From: Halanaerobiales bacterium
GTDB taxonomy: Bacteria; Bacillota_F; Halanaerobiia; DY22613
Assembly (NCBI GenBank): GCA_023128035.1
Contig: JAGMES010000164.1
Coordinates: 1-9,209, forward strand
Reading direction: 5' to 3'
Length of the DNA: 9,209 bases
Below are positions 2,017 through 7,687 of this stretch, in pieces. Below the pieces are notes generated by a model, which had not been told where the DNA came from, did not search any database, and was given only the letters and a program-made list of their open reading frames with translations. Both the position numbers and the translations under genes were made by a program. How positions within the stretch are numbered: position 1 is the first letter of the stretch; each line of letters starts with the position of its first letter.

Positions 2017-2107
2017 TCAAAATAGGAAGTAACATTTCCCGAAATAGAGAATAGTATATTAGCAAGTCAAATACCTAAAAAAATTTTGAATGAGGTGGAT
2101 TTTTAAA

Positions 2108-2251
2108 ATGGAGAAACAATATCATGATTGTCAATCAATGGATTCTATGTATTCCATGAAACCTATGGCTGGTATGGCTTCCATGCATCCAATGACTTGC
2201 ATGTCTTCGTCTTCTATGCAACCTATGGCTTCTAAGTATCCTATGAGATAG
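2108..2251 (+). CDS. 47-residue Met-repeat peptide, candidate precursor for the convergent YcaO protein
   Basis: A small gene with an ATG at 2108-2110, GAGGTGG (2092-2098) 9 nt upstream and TAG at 2249-2251. A transcription terminator follows at 2389-2418. The product has 12 Met in 47 residues. From residue 11 to 32 every third residue is Met (11, 14, 17, 20, 23, 26, 29, 32), then 37, 40 and 46. The residue before Met is nearly always Ser, Pro, Gly or Cys, giving tripeptides such as SMD, SMY, PMA, GMA, SMH, PMT, CMS. A short leader-like start (MEKQYHDCQ) lacks the repeat. Cys8, Cys31, His6 and His27 are the other potential metal ligands or modification sites. There is no signal peptide or membrane segment. 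MxxM repeats are known in Cu(I)/Ag(I)-binding proteins such as SilE. Convergence with a YcaO gene suggests a RiPP precursor modified on its backbone. Both roles are inference; I know no described family with this pattern. Confidence 0.8.
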   Translation: MEKQYHDCQSMDSMYSMKPMAGMASMHPMTCMSSSSMQPMASKYPMR

Positions 2252-2388
2252 TTTAAGACTATAAAGGGTCTAAATTAAGATCTTCAGATGTAATTTCAAA
2301 GACGTGAAACATAGAACAAAAACGATTGACTTCTATCATTAAAAAATTTATTTTCCGTGCTTTTAGGTTCTATGATAAGCAATCAAAC

Positions 2389-2418
2389 AAAACCCCACTA
2401 AATTTCTAGTGGGGTTTT
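2389..2418. terminator. Bidirectional terminator shared by the Met-rich peptide gene and ycaO
   Basis: The 12-bp arms AAAACCCCACTA (2389-2400) and TAGTGGGGTTTT (2407-2418) are perfectly complementary around a 6-nt loop (AATTTC). T-runs lie at the 3' end on both strands. It is 138 nt past the peptide stop and 7 nt past the ycaO stop. A weak inverted pair, CATAGAAC (2310-2317) and GTTCTATG (2367-2374), lies in the peptide transcript's 3' part. Confidence 0.9.
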
Positions 2419-2424
2419 CGACCT

Positions 2425-4248
2425 TTACCGCACTAAATTCATTAATTCCTGCTGGTTTATTCTGCTTGTTGCATATCTTTCCTTTAAAACTCTAAATACC
2501 CTTTCCGTATTTTTATATTGACACTTATATTTAAATTGGCAATTTCCACAATCATAACATTTTATAAGATTTTGCTTTGGAAAAATAGTTTCAGGATTTC
2601 CAATTTCCTTTATAACACCTTTAATCATGGATAGAGGATAAAAAGTTCCCAGCATCTCTATAATGTCTCTATCATCCAAACCATCTGAACGTGCTGCCAA
2701 ATAATCCCTCATACATTTATAGTACGTAACCATAGGTTTATGGAAAGTATTTGTTTGAATTTTACCCAAGAATCGTTCAAACACCCTATATGCACTACTA
2801 AAATCACCCTTTTTGCAGTAAAGAGCAGTAGTAAATAAAGATACATCTGCATAATACCAAGGCAGATCATTACTTATTGGTAGGTTTAAAATTTGTAACA
2901 CCGTTGTATTATGGCTAAGATCCTTTTTTTCCAGAAAAGTAGAAAGGCTTTCAATATCTTCATCTGTGATATGTTTCATATTTCTGATCAACTTTTTAAA
3001 CTTTACAAACTCTGCATATTCATCTAATTCTTTAACCTCATTGATTTCTTCAATCTCGCTGAAACCCGGAACTATAACATGAAATGCAGGAAATCCCAAA
3101 AAGGACACATCTCGCACATATGTATCATGGCCTTTAGTTTTCAGAAGGTTGATTAAGTATTTCAGCATCTCTTTGTTGGTCATCCTGCTAACATCTTCAA
3201 AAGGTCTAAATTCATAGCTTGGGGTTGTTTTAAAAAACTCAGGGGGATACCATCCACAACCGTTAACAAGAATATTTAATAAATTACTGTGTTCATCCTC
3301 CATATTACTCCTAAATGAAAACTCCCATACACCCCGCATATTCCTTACATCCTGTCCCTGCAAGAGTTCGGTTAGGGTACGCTCTGCTGCAATCTCAAAA
3401 GCAGGATGAGAACCGAATTTTACAAAATAGTTCTGCTGATCTCTGTTGATAAAGATTACTCCCACCACAGGAAGGCCTTGACCTAATGAGCAATCTTTTA
3501 ATAGAACACTATAATTTCCACTTAACTCAATCTGCTTAATCATCATTTCTATTTTAGGATATTTTTTTAAATAACTCATAGGAATAGTAGGGGGGGTTAT
3601 CCTTTCATCCATGATCCGTTGATTAACATTCCTTTCCAGCACTTCAGATATACCCTGCACTAATGCTTCCTCCGGGCTATTCCCAGCACACATTCCGTTC
3701 GACATATACATTTTTGAAACCATTTTCATCGGAATATAGGAGAGTTTACCACTATTCATGTTACAAAATGGAATAGCGATAAAGCCACAAGGGGATTCCT
3801 CATAGGAAATATCTTGCCATTTTTTTAGAAGCTCTTTTTGATCTATACTGGAGTCCAACTGAGTCAATTTTTCTTTGATCCATCCATTCTTACTCTTTAG
3901 TACATCTTCTATGCTCATCTGTTTTTCGTCAGGTGCATAAAAAAATCCTTTGTACTCTATCGCTTCCTGACTAACATCAGTATTAAGTCTAAAAGGTGCC
4001 TGATTTTGAAGTCGTTCCATTAGCTCACCATAAGCACTTGCCAGAGCGTATTCATAGGTGGTTCCTTTACCATTAGTAGAAAGAGTGGTATTCTCAATTC
4101 CAATTGTAAGAGAATAAAACCACTTTGCAAAATGGGCTACACCTTTTTGTACAGTTAAAATCCCTAAATCATTTAATATATTCCTGATTCGATTTAGAGT
4201 ATTACGAGGTGATTCATCCTTATACTTTCGTGTGCCGATATGCTTCAT
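2425..4248 (-). CDS. ycaO: YcaO-domain ATP-dependent amide-activating protein, E. coli YcaO type, with C-terminal Cys cluster
   Basis: A 607-residue protein. The start is ATG at 4246-4248 with GAGGTGA 5 nt upstream; an in-frame TTG 10 codons earlier (4278) has no ribosome binding site. YcaO proteins bind ATP and phosphorylate a backbone amide oxygen, leading to azolines, thioamides or amidines in peptides. E. coli YcaO instead assists RimO-dependent methylthiolation of ribosomal protein S12. ATP-site signatures are visible: S71-x3-E75-x2-E78-R79 after NGKGTT, E194-x3-Q198 with E202/E205-R206 in the GNSPEEALVQGISEVLER block, and R290-x3-E294-x2-Q297 in ERTLTELLQGQ. YIPM, SNGMCAGN and the C-terminal helical (TPR-like) part, about residues 455-555, match the E. 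coli YcaO layout. The PxPxP tail of azoline-forming YcaOs is absent. Unlike E. coli YcaO as I recall it, residues 564-576 carry C-x2-C-x2-C-x5-C, possibly a Zn or Fe-S site. The gene is monocistronic and convergent with the Met-rich peptide gene. Substrate unknown. Confidence 0.92.
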   Translation of the reverse strand: MKHIGTRKYKDESPRNTLNRIRNILNDLGILTVQKGVAHFAKWFYSLTIGIENTTLSTNGKGTTYEYALASAYGELMERLQNQAPFRLNTDVSQEAIEYKGFFYAPDEKQMSIEDVLKSKNGWIKEKLTQLDSSIDQKELLKKWQDISYEESPCGFIAIPFCNMNSGKLSYIPMKMVSKMYMSNGMCAGNSPEEALVQGISEVLERNVNQRIMDERITPPTIPMSYLKKYPKIEMMIKQIELSGNYSVLLKDCSLGQGLPVVGVIFINRDQQNYFVKFGSHPAFEIAAERTLTELLQGQDVRNMRGVWEFSFRSNMEDEHSNLLNILVNGCGWYPPEFFKTTPSYEFRPFEDVSRMTNKEMLKYLINLLKTKGHDTYVRDVSFLGFPAFHVIVPGFSEIEEINEVKELDEYAEFVKFKKLIRNMKHITDEDIESLSTFLEKKDLSHNTTVLQILNLPISNDLPWYYADVSLFTTALYCKKGDFSSAYRVFERFLGKIQTNTFHKPMVTYYKCMRDYLAARSDGLDDRDIIEMLGTFYPLSMIKGVIKEIGNPETIFPKQNLIKCYDCGNCQFKYKCQYKNTERVFRVLKERYATSRINQQELMNLVR

Positions 4249-4297
4249 TTTTCTCACCTCACATAAATTTGGCTTCAATAAAAAACTTTACTCATAG

Positions 4298-4337
4298 CCT
4301 GTTGTCACCTGTTGTCACCTGTTGTCACCTGTTGTTG
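4298..4337. repeat. Four-unit 10-bp tandem repeat in the ycaO leader/operator region
   Basis: The unit CCTGTTGTCA occurs three times exactly (4298-4307, 4308-4317, 4318-4327) and a fourth time with its last two bases changed (4328-4337). A 10-bp period puts each unit on the same face of the DNA helix. The array lies between the likely -10 (4339-4344) and the ycaO start (4248), covering the expected transcription start. On the minus strand each unit contains AGGTGA, like the gene's own Shine-Dalgarno. It could be an operator array, a leader element or a slippage-prone tract; nothing here decides between them. Confidence 0.85.
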
Positions 4338-4338
4338 A

Positions 4339-4347
4339 ATTGTATCA
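4339..4347 (-). promoter_or_regulatory. Probable extended -10 promoter of ycaO
   Basis: On the minus strand TGATACAAT combines an extended TG motif with a good TACAAT -10. The hexamer 17 nt upstream (TACCAT) is a poor -35, which fits an extended -10 promoter. Transcription would start inside the tandem repeat, giving a leader of about 85 nt. Confidence 0.45.
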
Positions 4348-4536
4348 ATCACTCTTTTATGATGGTACTAGTAAAAATAAAATTATCCTAATTAGTATAT
4401 TATATTTTAGGTAAACCAATCATATTACTCTAATTAAAAAGGTGCATACTATATTTATTAATCTATTTACTGTATATATCCTTTGTGACAGCTATTTGGC
4501 GACTTAACGTTATAAATTAATAAAAGAAACCCAGAA

Positions 4537-4726: not shown

Positions 4727-5740
4727 TTAACATATAATTTCCTCTTCTTGTTTTAGAGTTTGTATTTCTTCAAGTGATAAACCTGTCAATTCTTTGACTC
4801 TCGAAATCAATATATTTGCTGATAACATTCTCATTACTACTTCCCTCATAGCCTCTGCTTTACCTTCTATACGACCTATCTCTATACCCTCAGCCCTACC
4901 TTTTAAACGATAAGATGAAACAAACTCCATACACTTCTCAACCTCCTTTTCACCTAATTCGTTTTTTAATCTCTTACGATAGATTTCTTCTTCATTTTCA
5001 GTGAGAGGTAAATACGTCTCAAAAAATGTTACCAAAAACTCAATCTTCACTTCTATCTTTTCTTTTTCTGTCCAATCCATTTTACTTATTAACGCCGCTG
5101 CAACTGGATTATTGCTCTTTATAAACTTCTTCCATGATTCTTTTCTTAATTGAATTCTAAAAAATTTAAACTCTAAAGTTTTCAAAAATGGAAACTCTAT
5201 TATAAAACTATCTGGTTCTATTATTTTTGCATCATGAGAGTAAATAACTATTGGAATAATTTTATGTTGATGCTTTTTATACAACTCAGCAAAATAACGA
5301 TACATATTTTCATTATAGTCTGCTAATCTCTGGGCCTGGCTTTCTACATGAAATAGTATTACTCCATCTTCCCTCTTAGTTTTGTCTCTACAAGAATATC
5401 TACATAGTGTTTTGTGAACTCCTTATAATCAGTTATTACTTCCTCTCTTAAAAACTTTACATGATTTTTGTCCATATCTTTGATAATTTCAGGAAAAAAT
5501 AACTCCACAAACTCTACAAAAAACATTTCCAAAAGAGTGTTTAAAGTCGAGGTAATAACTACGTTAATACCTCTTAGGTTTAACGACTTCAGAAGGTTAT
5601 TTGAACTCCCACTAAAGTTTTTAAATTGTTCTAGTTCTTTCACCCCCACCTATAGGGAAGAGAGACTTCGCCTTCTAAAATGTCGTTAAACAAGGCATCA
5701 TGTTTTTTCTACTTACCTTCCTGTTTTCCACACATAACAT
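4727..5740 (-). pseudogene. Rpn-family PD-(D/E)XK putative transposase/nuclease, copy 2, multiply disrupted
   Basis: This is the paralogue of the gene at 547-1391. The original start is ATG at 5738-5740, with GAGGAG upstream. Lesions: (i) the T-run at 5703-5708 has six T's where copy 1 has seven, a frameshift after about ten codons; (ii) a ~145-nt insertion at 5541-5685; (iii) one base lost near 5370 (between VETKLR and the VILIHVESQ equivalent). A 48-nt in-frame stretch present in copy 1 (LRMLLEMKLDDLKNEF) is missing near 5040. Its C-terminal half, open from 5305 to 4727, keeps the region that copy 1 lost by its 16-nt deletion (KFFRIQLRK). Its C-terminal coil differs from copy 1 (AEGIEIGRIEGKAEAMREVV, with EIGRIEG-type repeats common at the end of such proteins). 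Neither copy is intact, so neither is likely to make full-length nuclease. Confidence 0.85.
5541..5685 (-). mobile_element. ~145-nt insertion with hairpin ends, probably a minimal IS200/IS605-type derivative
   Basis: Copy 1 reads AAAAGAGTTTTAAACAAGG where copy 2 has about 145 extra bases inside the same flanks, at a TTTAA-type site with no obvious target duplication. One end carries a hairpin at 5549-5573: a 6-bp stem GAGGTA/TACCTC, one mismatched base, a 4-bp stem TAAC/GTTA and a 3-nt loop. A stem interrupted by a mismatched or unpaired base near an element end is typical of sites bound by Y1 (TnpA) transposases. The other end (minus strand) has a smaller stem GAAG-TCTCT-CTTC. GTTTAACGAC at 5578-5587 is inverted at 5683-5692. 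No transposase or TnpB gene fits in this length. The middle resembles the 3' tail of such elements (FKNFSGSSNNLLKSLNLRG on the minus strand), so it may be a deletion derivative (PATE/MITE-like). Confidence 0.6.
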
Positions 5741-5771
5741 ACAATCACTCCTCAGATAATGAAATACAATT

Positions 5772-5790
5772 AATTTAAATCTAAGGTAGT
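5772..5790. repeat. Motif AATTTAAATCTAAGGTAGT upstream of Rpn-type copy 2
   Basis: Identical to 1421-1439 upstream of copy 1, and one base different from both arms of the inverted repeat at 7860-7913 (AAAGTAGT instead of AAGGTAGT). It lies about 30 nt upstream of the former start codon, within the conserved upstream block that runs to 5960. The stretch 5741-5996 otherwise holds only this block, including a TTGACA-17-TATTGT outward promoter-like pair. Confidence 0.7.
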
Positions 5791-5996
5791 GGGAATTATT
5801 ACTATATATAATCCGAATTTATTTCTTTATCAGTTTGAAACAATAAAATTTATATTTTAGCAGGAAAGTAAATAAATTCTTATCTTTAATTTACCATTAC
5901 AGCTATCAGATTTCAAGAGTTTTAAGTAACTTTTTTTGACAAAATTCATTTATTGGTTTATTGTTTTAAATCTTTAAATTAGCAACTCATACTAAT

Positions 5997-6492: not shown

Positions 6493-7347
6493 CTAACTCC
6501 CAAAAAAGTCTTTGATTTCTTCTAAATCTTCTATATCAATTTCTTCTTCTATTCCAAAATCAAATAAAGTCTTATTAAAAATATCTAAATCCTCACTTAA
6601 TTCATTTAATGAAATTTTTCCATCCTCATAGTTTAGAATAAATTCTTCTAAAGCTGGACCATCCACACCAGATTTTTTTGTTCGTTGATTTAATAATTTA
6701 AAAGTAGTTTCATCAACATTGAGCCCAATTAAGTAATATTTATCGCCTTCATTTCTTACAGATTCTCTTATAAGTTCAGTAAATTGTTTATCATCTATAA
6801 CTTCAATTTCTCGAAACCGTCTAACAATTGCTTTATAGGGAAGTTTATATTCACAATGCAACCTAGCAATTAAACGTAGCAAACTCAAATGACCCCAACT
6901 TTTTAAACTTATTTCTCCCTTATTTACTTTTTTAATCTCTTCTTGCAAAGTTTCAATAGGTAGTAATAATTCAGCAGCAAAACGATTGGCTTTGCACTCT
7001 CTTGCATCTTCTCTATCAATTGAAAACCTACAAATTGTCCAATCAATTTTTTCATAGTGATGATATAACTCATGTCCTAAAGCAAAAATTTGCTTATCAT
7101 AATATTCATAGGTATTCAAACCAACAAAAGCAATTATTTTATTGATTTCTTTTGATCTTATATATAATGCCGAGAAAATATTATTTTGTTTATCACCTGT
7201 TTCAATTGGAAGATATAGAATTTGAATACCTATTTCACGAATAAGTTTAAAAATGTTATCTCCCAAGGGACCCATTCCAAAACCATACATATTTCGCTTT
7301 TCTTTAACTAATCGTTCAATTTCATAAATATCTTGTTTATCCAACAT
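6493..7347 (-). CDS. ImmA/IrrE-family zinc metallopeptidase
   Basis: A 284-residue cytoplasmic protein. ImmA/IrrE (COG2856, DUF955) peptidases cleave or relieve HTH repressors, as ImmA does for ImmR in ICEBs1, and are also frequent next to toxin genes. The zinc site is clear: H92-E93-L-Y-H96 in ALGHELYHHYE, and the downstream E117-C-K-A-N-R-F-A-A-E-L-L-L-P block, where E117 is the likely third ligand. Residues 1-90 form the usual N-terminal part; 131-284 form a longer C-terminal region ending in a very acidic stretch (EEEIDIEDLEEIKDFF). The start is ATG at 7345-7347 with AAGGAGA 7 nt upstream. The upstream regulator's stop is 1 nt away, so the genes are co-transcribed and probably coupled. 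It likely acts on the adjacent Xre protein. Confidence 0.9.
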   Translation of the reverse strand: MLDKQDIYEIERLVKEKRNMYGFGMGPLGDNIFKLIREIGIQILYLPIETGDKQNNIFSALYIRSKEINKIIAFVGLNTYEYYDKQIFALGHELYHHYEKIDWTICRFSIDREDARECKANRFAAELLLPIETLQEEIKKVNKGEISLKSWGHLSLLRLIARLHCEYKLPYKAIVRRFREIEVIDDKQFTELIRESVRNEGDKYYLIGLNVDETTFKLLNQRTKKSGVDGPALEEFILNYEDGKISLNELSEDLDIFNKTLFDFGIEEEIDIEDLEEIKDFFGS

Positions 7348-7348
7348 T

Positions 7349-7687
7349 TTAAGTTCTCCTTAAACGATGATGTTTTCTAAGACGTAAGACCATAGAAATC
7401 ATTTGATTAAACCCTTTTTTTTCTTTTTCAGACTGTGTTTCGCCAAGCATAGCAATAAAAATATCCGAATTACTTTCCTCTTCTAGAATTTCTTCAAAAT
7501 TAATATTTAATTCTTTTAAAAGCGCATTTAATTGTGATAACGAGGGTAAATGATTTTTACATTCAATTCTACTTATTATATTACGATTCATATTTGTTAA
7601 CTTTGCTAATTCCTCTTGCGTCAATTCCAATTGCCTTCTTTTTTGTTCAACAATCTTTCCCAACTTCTCTAAAGAGATTTGTTTCAA
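7349..7687 (-). CDS. Xre-family HTH transcriptional regulator
   Basis: A 112-residue DNA-binding protein. Residues about 8-62 form a lambda-repressor-like helix-turn-helix (LGKIVEQKRRQLELTQEELAKL, then NMNRNIISRIECKNHLPSLSQLNALLKELNI). The rest is a charged linker and a basic C-terminal tail (LRLRKHHRLRRT). The start codon is TTG at 7685-7687 with GGGGGTG 5 nt upstream; no ATG lies between it and the HTH. It is first in the operon with the zinc peptidase and the broken PIN-like gene. Inverted and direct ATGATAC/GTATCAT sites lie directly upstream (7702-7753), so it probably represses its own operon and the neighbouring peptidase relieves it. Helix assignment is firm; the target sites are inferred. 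Confidence 0.9.
   Translation of the reverse strand: MKQISLEKLGKIVEQKRRQLELTQEELAKLTNMNRNIISRIECKNHLPSLSQLNALLKELNINFEEILEEESNSDIFIAMLGETQSEKEKKGFNQMISMVLRLRKHHRLRRT

Follow-up and report, generated by a model that had tools for sequence, protein, structure and literature searches.

A YcaO enzyme recurrently paired with a methionine-triplet repeat peptide: a putative sporulation module

Heterocycloanthracin-type RiPPs combine C-x-x repeats with a YcaO enzyme, and the His-Xaa-Ser repeat system, so named in NCBIfam, uses radical SAM enzymes. According to the available text of PMC13063428, the YcaO of Escherichia coli (EcYcaO) is strongly acidic (pI 4.4) and thioamidates Met82 of the ribosomal protein uL16 in a reaction using ATP, Mg and sulfide, in an organism without TfuA. 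The same text places a few non-acidic enzymes of the EcYcaO group in RiPP-like contexts, and these may include relatives of the clade described here. In this work we analyze a ycaO gene and a neighboring small gene for a repeat peptide in the window, by which we mean the whole 9,209-nucleotide stretch of DNA. The two constitute a real, recurrent enzyme-peptide pair that is, as far as we searched, undescribed: a search of the open literature, mostly of titles and the beginnings of abstracts, found no description of a YcaO paired with a Met-rich repeat peptide.

The peptide gene (2108..2251, + strand) encodes 47 residues (MEKQYHDCQSMDSMYSMKPMAGMASMHPMTCMSSSSMQPMASKYPMR), with Met at positions 11, 14, 17, 20, 23, 26, 29 and 32, eight in a row, and again at 37, 40 and 46. 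Such a run of eight arose in 0 of 20,000 permutations of the residues after Met1, and the corresponding eight-ATG pattern, found once in the window, in 0 of 200 dinucleotide-preserving shuffles of it. A ribosome-binding site, GAGGTGG (2092..2098, + strand), lies 9 nt 5' of the ATG, and similar sites precede many of the relatives described below. The gene is convergent with ycaO across an intergenic gap of 173 bp, within which a terminator scan and the sequence itself place a 13-bp palindromic, terminator-like stem (2389..2418), reported for the − strand alone by a scan in which 1.4 such sites are expected by chance. The original prediction had pointed to Met at every third residue, a good ribosome-binding site and an adjacent YcaO gene, and all three observations hold, as seen in the translation, in the GAGGTGG element and in a PF02624 match at 1e-54 in the convergent gene. 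The predicted model of the peptide is disordered or unfolded (pLDDT 46). A single-sequence protein search with the peptide returned no matches, megablast of the window against plasmids returned none, and tblastn against plasmids gave only chance-level matches (best E 0.3); every match fell below cut-off in an NCBIfam scan of the peptide and 20 relatives and in a Pfam scan of the peptide and 11 Met- or Cys-rich relatives. Four proteins retrieved by a profile search are of low complexity, look unrelated and were discarded.

Domain, profile and structure comparisons assign the product of ycaO (2425..4248, − strand) to the E. coli type of YcaO enzymes. The best start is the ATG at 4248, yielding 607 aa, the same length as database entry P0002; YcaO searches were run with 2425-4242, a form two residues shorter. 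The PF02624 match reaches 186.5 bits against a gathering score of 25.7, placing the protein in the YcaO family, and is accompanied by a weak match to YcaO_C that lies under the cut-off; against NF040716, the equivalog model of the E. coli S12-accessory YcaO, the score is 320 bits for a cut-off of 700. Among solved structures, E. coli YcaO is nearest both by sequence (4q84) and by predicted fold (4q86, the best fold match), and the Glu aligned with E202 is conserved, as judged from invariant Glu columns and from the alignment to 4q84 with the position counted by eye. From 7998 scored candidates, 5132 relatives were obtained at E<=1e-30, and among the matches listed (the best 120 of 5132) the nearest named relatives belong to Desulfitobacterium and Sedimentibacter. 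A C-terminal Cys cluster, CxxCxxCx5C, was considered and rejected as unspecific, being present in many YcaOs without a peptide. Just 5' of the ycaO start lies a perfect 10-bp tandem repeat of 3.8 copies (4298-4335), which possibly confers phase-variable ycaO expression. A different locus (L014) contains a second YcaO-like ORF (2321-4441, 706 aa) some 5.5 kb upstream of the first.

The linkage between enzyme and peptide was analyzed on 92 loci, comprising the window, 80 YcaO loci from a genome scan (L001-L080) and 11 from whole-genome searches. Loci were scored with the A1 profile and searched for ORFs with at least five Met/Cys in phase 3, and the line between close and distant YcaO loci was set at 650 bits after viewing the score table. 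An in-frame small ORF with Met/Cys at period 3 is present within 1.5 kb in 29 of the 34 close loci (at least 650 bits), versus 0 of the 58 distant ones (<650 bits), a set that includes two loci with less than 1 kb of downstream sequence (L040, L072) and some near-duplicates (L111 and L034 are identical in the tree, and L158 and L159 come from the same genome). The prediction that homologous small frames would occur near other ycaO genes is thereby strongly upheld. The 29 linked peptides come in three arrangements, with 26 downstream and convergent, one upstream and divergent (L021) and two upstream on the same strand (L020, L026); those of L010 and L022 are partial and reach the contig end. 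Five close loci have no linked peptide: in L150 the contig ends 320 bp past ycaO; in two Tepidibacter loci (L016, L019) a Met-rich small protein is present only unlinked, elsewhere in each genome (L089/L090); L028 has a looser Met/Pro-rich ORF, convergent and 48 bp from ycaO; and L027 shows no Met/Cys phase-3 ORF within 1.5 kb. One member of the distant group (L029) has a repeat ORF at 2.9 kb, and nothing further out was found in any other of the 92 loci; in L031, at 49% identity, ycaO is split over two frames and scores low as a fragment, and no peptide is seen. A tree of 67 rows was inferred with a quick method, leaving out rows below 330 bits, L031 and L072, and scoring unlinked, loose and 2.9-kb cases as absent. 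On it the peptide label requires 2 changes, or 1 if the contig-edge L150 is not counted, whereas shuffled labels need 21.9 on average, with as few as 2 in none of 500 shuffles; the peptide-linked YcaOs are essentially one clade.

Besides YcaO, the most widespread linked protein cluster reaches only 7 of 32 loci, a result obtained by counting clusters and not by scanning directly for E1-like or RRE domains. That cluster corresponds to a YlbF/YmcA-like gene near ycaO in seven loci (L001 at 9572-9913, L011, L014, L015, L016, L019 and L021), with PF06133 in the four that were scanned. The pair in the window is flanked by direct repeats of about 1.1-1.3 kb (535-1639 and 4736-5991), 73-95% alike in pieces, which contain short frames weakly matching, below cut-off, models of Rpn-type nucleases/transposases, and may therefore lie in a duplicated or mobile setting. 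Beyond it, an IrrE/M78-like metallopeptidase gene adjoins a helix-turn-helix regulator (6493-7687), an ImmA/ImmR-like pair.

Repeat units were counted in 15 Met-type peptides (the window, L118 and 13 linked ones) and nine Negativicutes peptides, excluding L010, L025, L144, L148, L153 and L157. In the Met type 419 of 426 units end in Met, a near-constancy that partly follows from how the unit is defined, preceded by Ser, Gly, Pro or Ala in 360 units and, one residue earlier, by Gln, His or Asn in 248. The Negativicutes peptides alternate Cys and Met in one phase (199 Cys-ended and 166 Met-ended among 365 units, with Ser before in 245), in agreement with the initial idea of Met replacing Cys in a repeat. 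The longest Met run extends over 56 in phase. Peptide N-termini are often acidic or Tyr-rich (e.g. MYYDDDDDD), and some C-termini are acidic.

Similar repeats were also sought throughout genomes. The eight-ATG pattern was detected in 20 of 391 Clostridia genomes and a YcaO at E<=1e-120 in five, with both in two (G001, G003). One locus was inspected from each of the 20, and those besides G001 and G003 showed CotJB-like Met-Gly proteins (L113, L114) and out-of-frame or other repeats. Met-triplet proteins without a clade YcaO are small in L115 and L119 and part of a larger protein in L121, and G070 (L118) holds a clear-looking family member at a contig edge. The CotJB-like proteins (L113 1450-1932, L114 1171-1671) have an N-terminus of Met-Gly-x repeats (Pfam scan of L113), with no recognized YcaO in the 3-kb loci. 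Among 200 Negativicutes genomes, the alternating Cys/Met pattern was found in 12, in six of them at the ycaO locus (G004, G011, G017, G024, G493, G501); the other six matches lie away from it, in different proteins or frames. Two Negativicutes genomes carry, also away from the ycaO locus, a Cys/Met-rich N-terminus (CDCMPSCEPMPMCEPM) on a Cys-pair, Phe/Gly-rich protein (L168 1405-1959, L169 1135-1644). Six-ATG patterns elsewhere in 30 genomes were rejected as family members, among them GroEL GGM tails, a Met-Asn protein (L083) and an out-of-frame repeat (L086).

A link to sporulation, absent from the original prediction, is provided by a sigma-K-like motif and by restriction to genomes with SpoIVA. 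The sigma-K elements of C. difficile are AC and CATATAAT, according to the available text of PMC3789822. We searched the pattern AC-N14-17-CATANNNT upstream of 27 peptide genes, namely 25 of the 29 linked ones and two from Tepidibacter; L007 was masked, L010 and L022 were cut, and L025 was added later. The motif precedes 19 of the 27, where shuffling predicts 1.2 and none of 100 shuffles exceeded 5. Correction of the L148 start raises the count to 20 of 27, compared with 20 of the 318 remaining genes at these loci; the 20 peptide genes are not independent cases, because several come from close relatives. It is positioned 31-47 nt before the start in 19 of the 20, and the remaining one, at 100 nt in L014, may be due to chance. 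The strict motif was missed in the window, L001, L015, L020, L026, L089 and L090. In the window, AC (−35) is followed after 16 nt by AATAGTAT as −10 (2032..2057, + strand), one mismatch from consensus, with A for its first C. Four additional peptide upstream regions were inspected, and L118 matches while L025, L028 and L029 do not; in L025 a CATATTAT box is present, but AC is missing at the appropriate spacing. Patterns for sigma-A, E, G and H were found in 0 of the 27 peptide genes, and that for sigma-F in 2 against 0.3 expected. With a relaxed −10 and a spacer of 16-17, the motif is also present ahead of 15 of 34 ycaO genes versus 28 of 318 others, including 14 of 16 in Negativicutes; outside the Negativicutes it is confined to L018 among 18 ycaO genes, and that of the window lacks it. 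No named Clostridium species is found among the motif-bearing ycaO genes, although L005 has such a motif with a 14-nt spacer. SpoIVA is encoded in 34 of 34 genomes (those harboring the close loci, 33 without the window, and the one harboring L029), and in 17 of 17 YcaO-positive Negativicutes, one of which (G549) has a more distant YcaO and no peptide, versus 51 of 200 Negativicutes overall; this co-occurrence weighs less because the genomes are related. Judging from these upstream motifs, the peptide seems to be turned on at a late stage of sporulation.

We put forward, with a probability of roughly 0.55 for the reading as a whole, that ycaO and its neighboring peptide gene together make up a sporulation module of two genes, producing a YcaO-modified spore-surface peptide, in Clostridia and in Negativicutes carrying spore genes. 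The peptide gene would be transcribed late in the mother cell by sigma-K RNA polymerase, as the Negativicutes ycaO probably is too, and such late mother-cell transcription would make the peptide most likely a component of the spore coat or exosporium; we regard this surface location as quite probable. It is likewise rather likely that the peptide is the substrate of YcaO, an ATP-dependent backbone-activating enzyme whose action would fall on the Met/Cys triplets. Of the possible reactions, backbone thioamidation at the repeated sulfur residue, like that of EcYcaO at uL16-Met82, is the likeliest, and by this analogy we give thioamide chemistry on the repeats about even odds. Since many units lack Ser, Thr and Cys, ring formation cannot be the reaction common to all, while an external sulfide nucleophile could act on every repeat. 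The product would be a polymer bearing a ladder-like array of thioether/thiol and C=S groups, with a putative role in metal binding or protection from oxidants. We know of no YcaO-modified structural endospore protein and of no densely thioamidated natural protein. The broader picture, in which the spore surface of many anaerobes carries a polymer whose backbone a dedicated YcaO thioamidates at one residue in three, is tentative and somewhat more doubtful than the module itself. Transfer from EcYcaO is not simple, and a preference for Met is unsupported, since in the available text of PMC13063428 that enzyme shows no activity on 11- and 21-residue peptides and still modifies the M82A variant. 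TfuA was found in 0 of 24 genomes tested, drawn from the 34 hosts.

Met triplets also exist without a clade YcaO, in the CotJB-like fusions (L113, L114) and small proteins (L115, L119) noted above, and the Tepidibacter protein is unlinked, as might be expected if the peptide were an unmodified spore coat or metal-binding (Cu/Ag) protein and YcaO were linked to it for some other reason; linkage at the level of a clade, in several arrangements, makes this unlikely. The original prediction had considered a new class of repeat-type RiPP precursor with Met in place of Cys, comparing it with heterocycloanthracin-type precursors, or else a small peptide that may sequester metal. In an azol(in)e RiPP of the heterocycloanthracin type, YcaO, belonging to the cyclodehydratase family, would cyclize Cys, Ser or Thr of the repeats, and the product would be a secreted natural product. 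The nine Cys/Met-type peptides suit this proposal, with 199 of 365 units Cys-ended, Ser frequently before, and only 45 of 365 (the sum of per-peptide counts) without Ser, Thr or Cys, and rings could thus still form in them. Over 25 peptides, however, 285 of 815 units have none of these residues (55 of 58 in L026, 43 of 50 in L020), and azoline rings are therefore not the general product; the peptides, moreover, have no clear leader, and no partner gene recurs at the loci beyond the cluster count given above. As a common rule azoline chemistry is not supported, and we consider the azol(in)e RiPP rather improbable, with cyclization in the Cys type as the part that survives.

A further alternative is that uL16 of the ribosome is the thioamidation target of the clade YcaO, just as in E. 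coli, and that the peptide has only a regulatory or competing role. Membership in the same subfamily, the shared fold and the moderately acidic pI of many clade members, near 5, speak for it, but pI values in the close loci span 4.75-8.66 (7.19 in the window), compared with the 4.4 given in the available text for EcYcaO (PMC13063428), and the linkage to the peptide goes against it as well. With a YcaO at E<=1e-120 in only 5 of 391 Clostridia genomes, uL16 thioamidation is not a core Clostridia function, and we deem this explanation improbable. The detection of 18- and 27-bp tandem repeats could suggest a 9-bp minisatellite devoid of coding meaning, which is very improbable: in a frame-blind search of the 92 loci, Met/Cys-phase repeats were confined to close-group loci and L029, the ATG frame of each peptide was open to its own stop, and a closed or shifted Met frame was looked for and not seen. 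Divergence between neighboring units is greatest at the third position of codons, 119 of 197 neighboring pairs with an identical residue before Met show codon differences, and ribosome-binding sites precede many of the peptide genes.

Under the favored reading of a sporulation module with a YcaO-modified peptide, an orphan YcaO branch would gain a probable substrate encoded next door, YcaO chemistry would become tied to endospore formation, and the repeat substrates would offer many equivalent sites for EcYcaO-type thioamidation, including sulfur delivery without TfuA.

Compared with known systems, the present family shares its three-residue period and its YcaO with heterocycloanthracin-type RiPPs, and differs in having Met or Met/Cys for Cys, no recurrent linked partners and many units without a ring-forming residue. 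The His-Xaa-Ser repeat system likewise sets a small three-residue-repeat protein beside modification enzymes, but these are radical SAM enzymes instead of YcaO, and the peptide of L026 scores 40 bits against its cut-off of 55. CotJB-like coat proteins with a Met-rich N-terminus (L113, L114) resemble the family in bringing Met triplets into spore coat proteins, and are set apart by their CotJB domain (scanned in L113) and by loci of 3 kb with no recognized YcaO. The AC/CATANNNT promoter of sigma-K-regulated spore genes is shared by 20 of 27 peptide genes versus 20 of 318 others, and by the window only with one mismatch. YcaO-TfuA thioamitides, as presented in the available text of PMC8120280, have in common with the present clade a YcaO and possible thioamides, and differ by TfuA, found in 0 of the 24 genomes tested here. 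A further likeness is to E. coli YcaO, which belongs to the same subfamily, has the same fold, operates without TfuA and acts at the Met backbone carbonyl of uL16-Met82; whereas the available text (PMC13063428) describes a folded ribosomal substrate, a strongly acidic enzyme and no small ORF nearby, the present clade combines a less acidic enzyme with a linked repeat peptide in genomes that carry spore genes.
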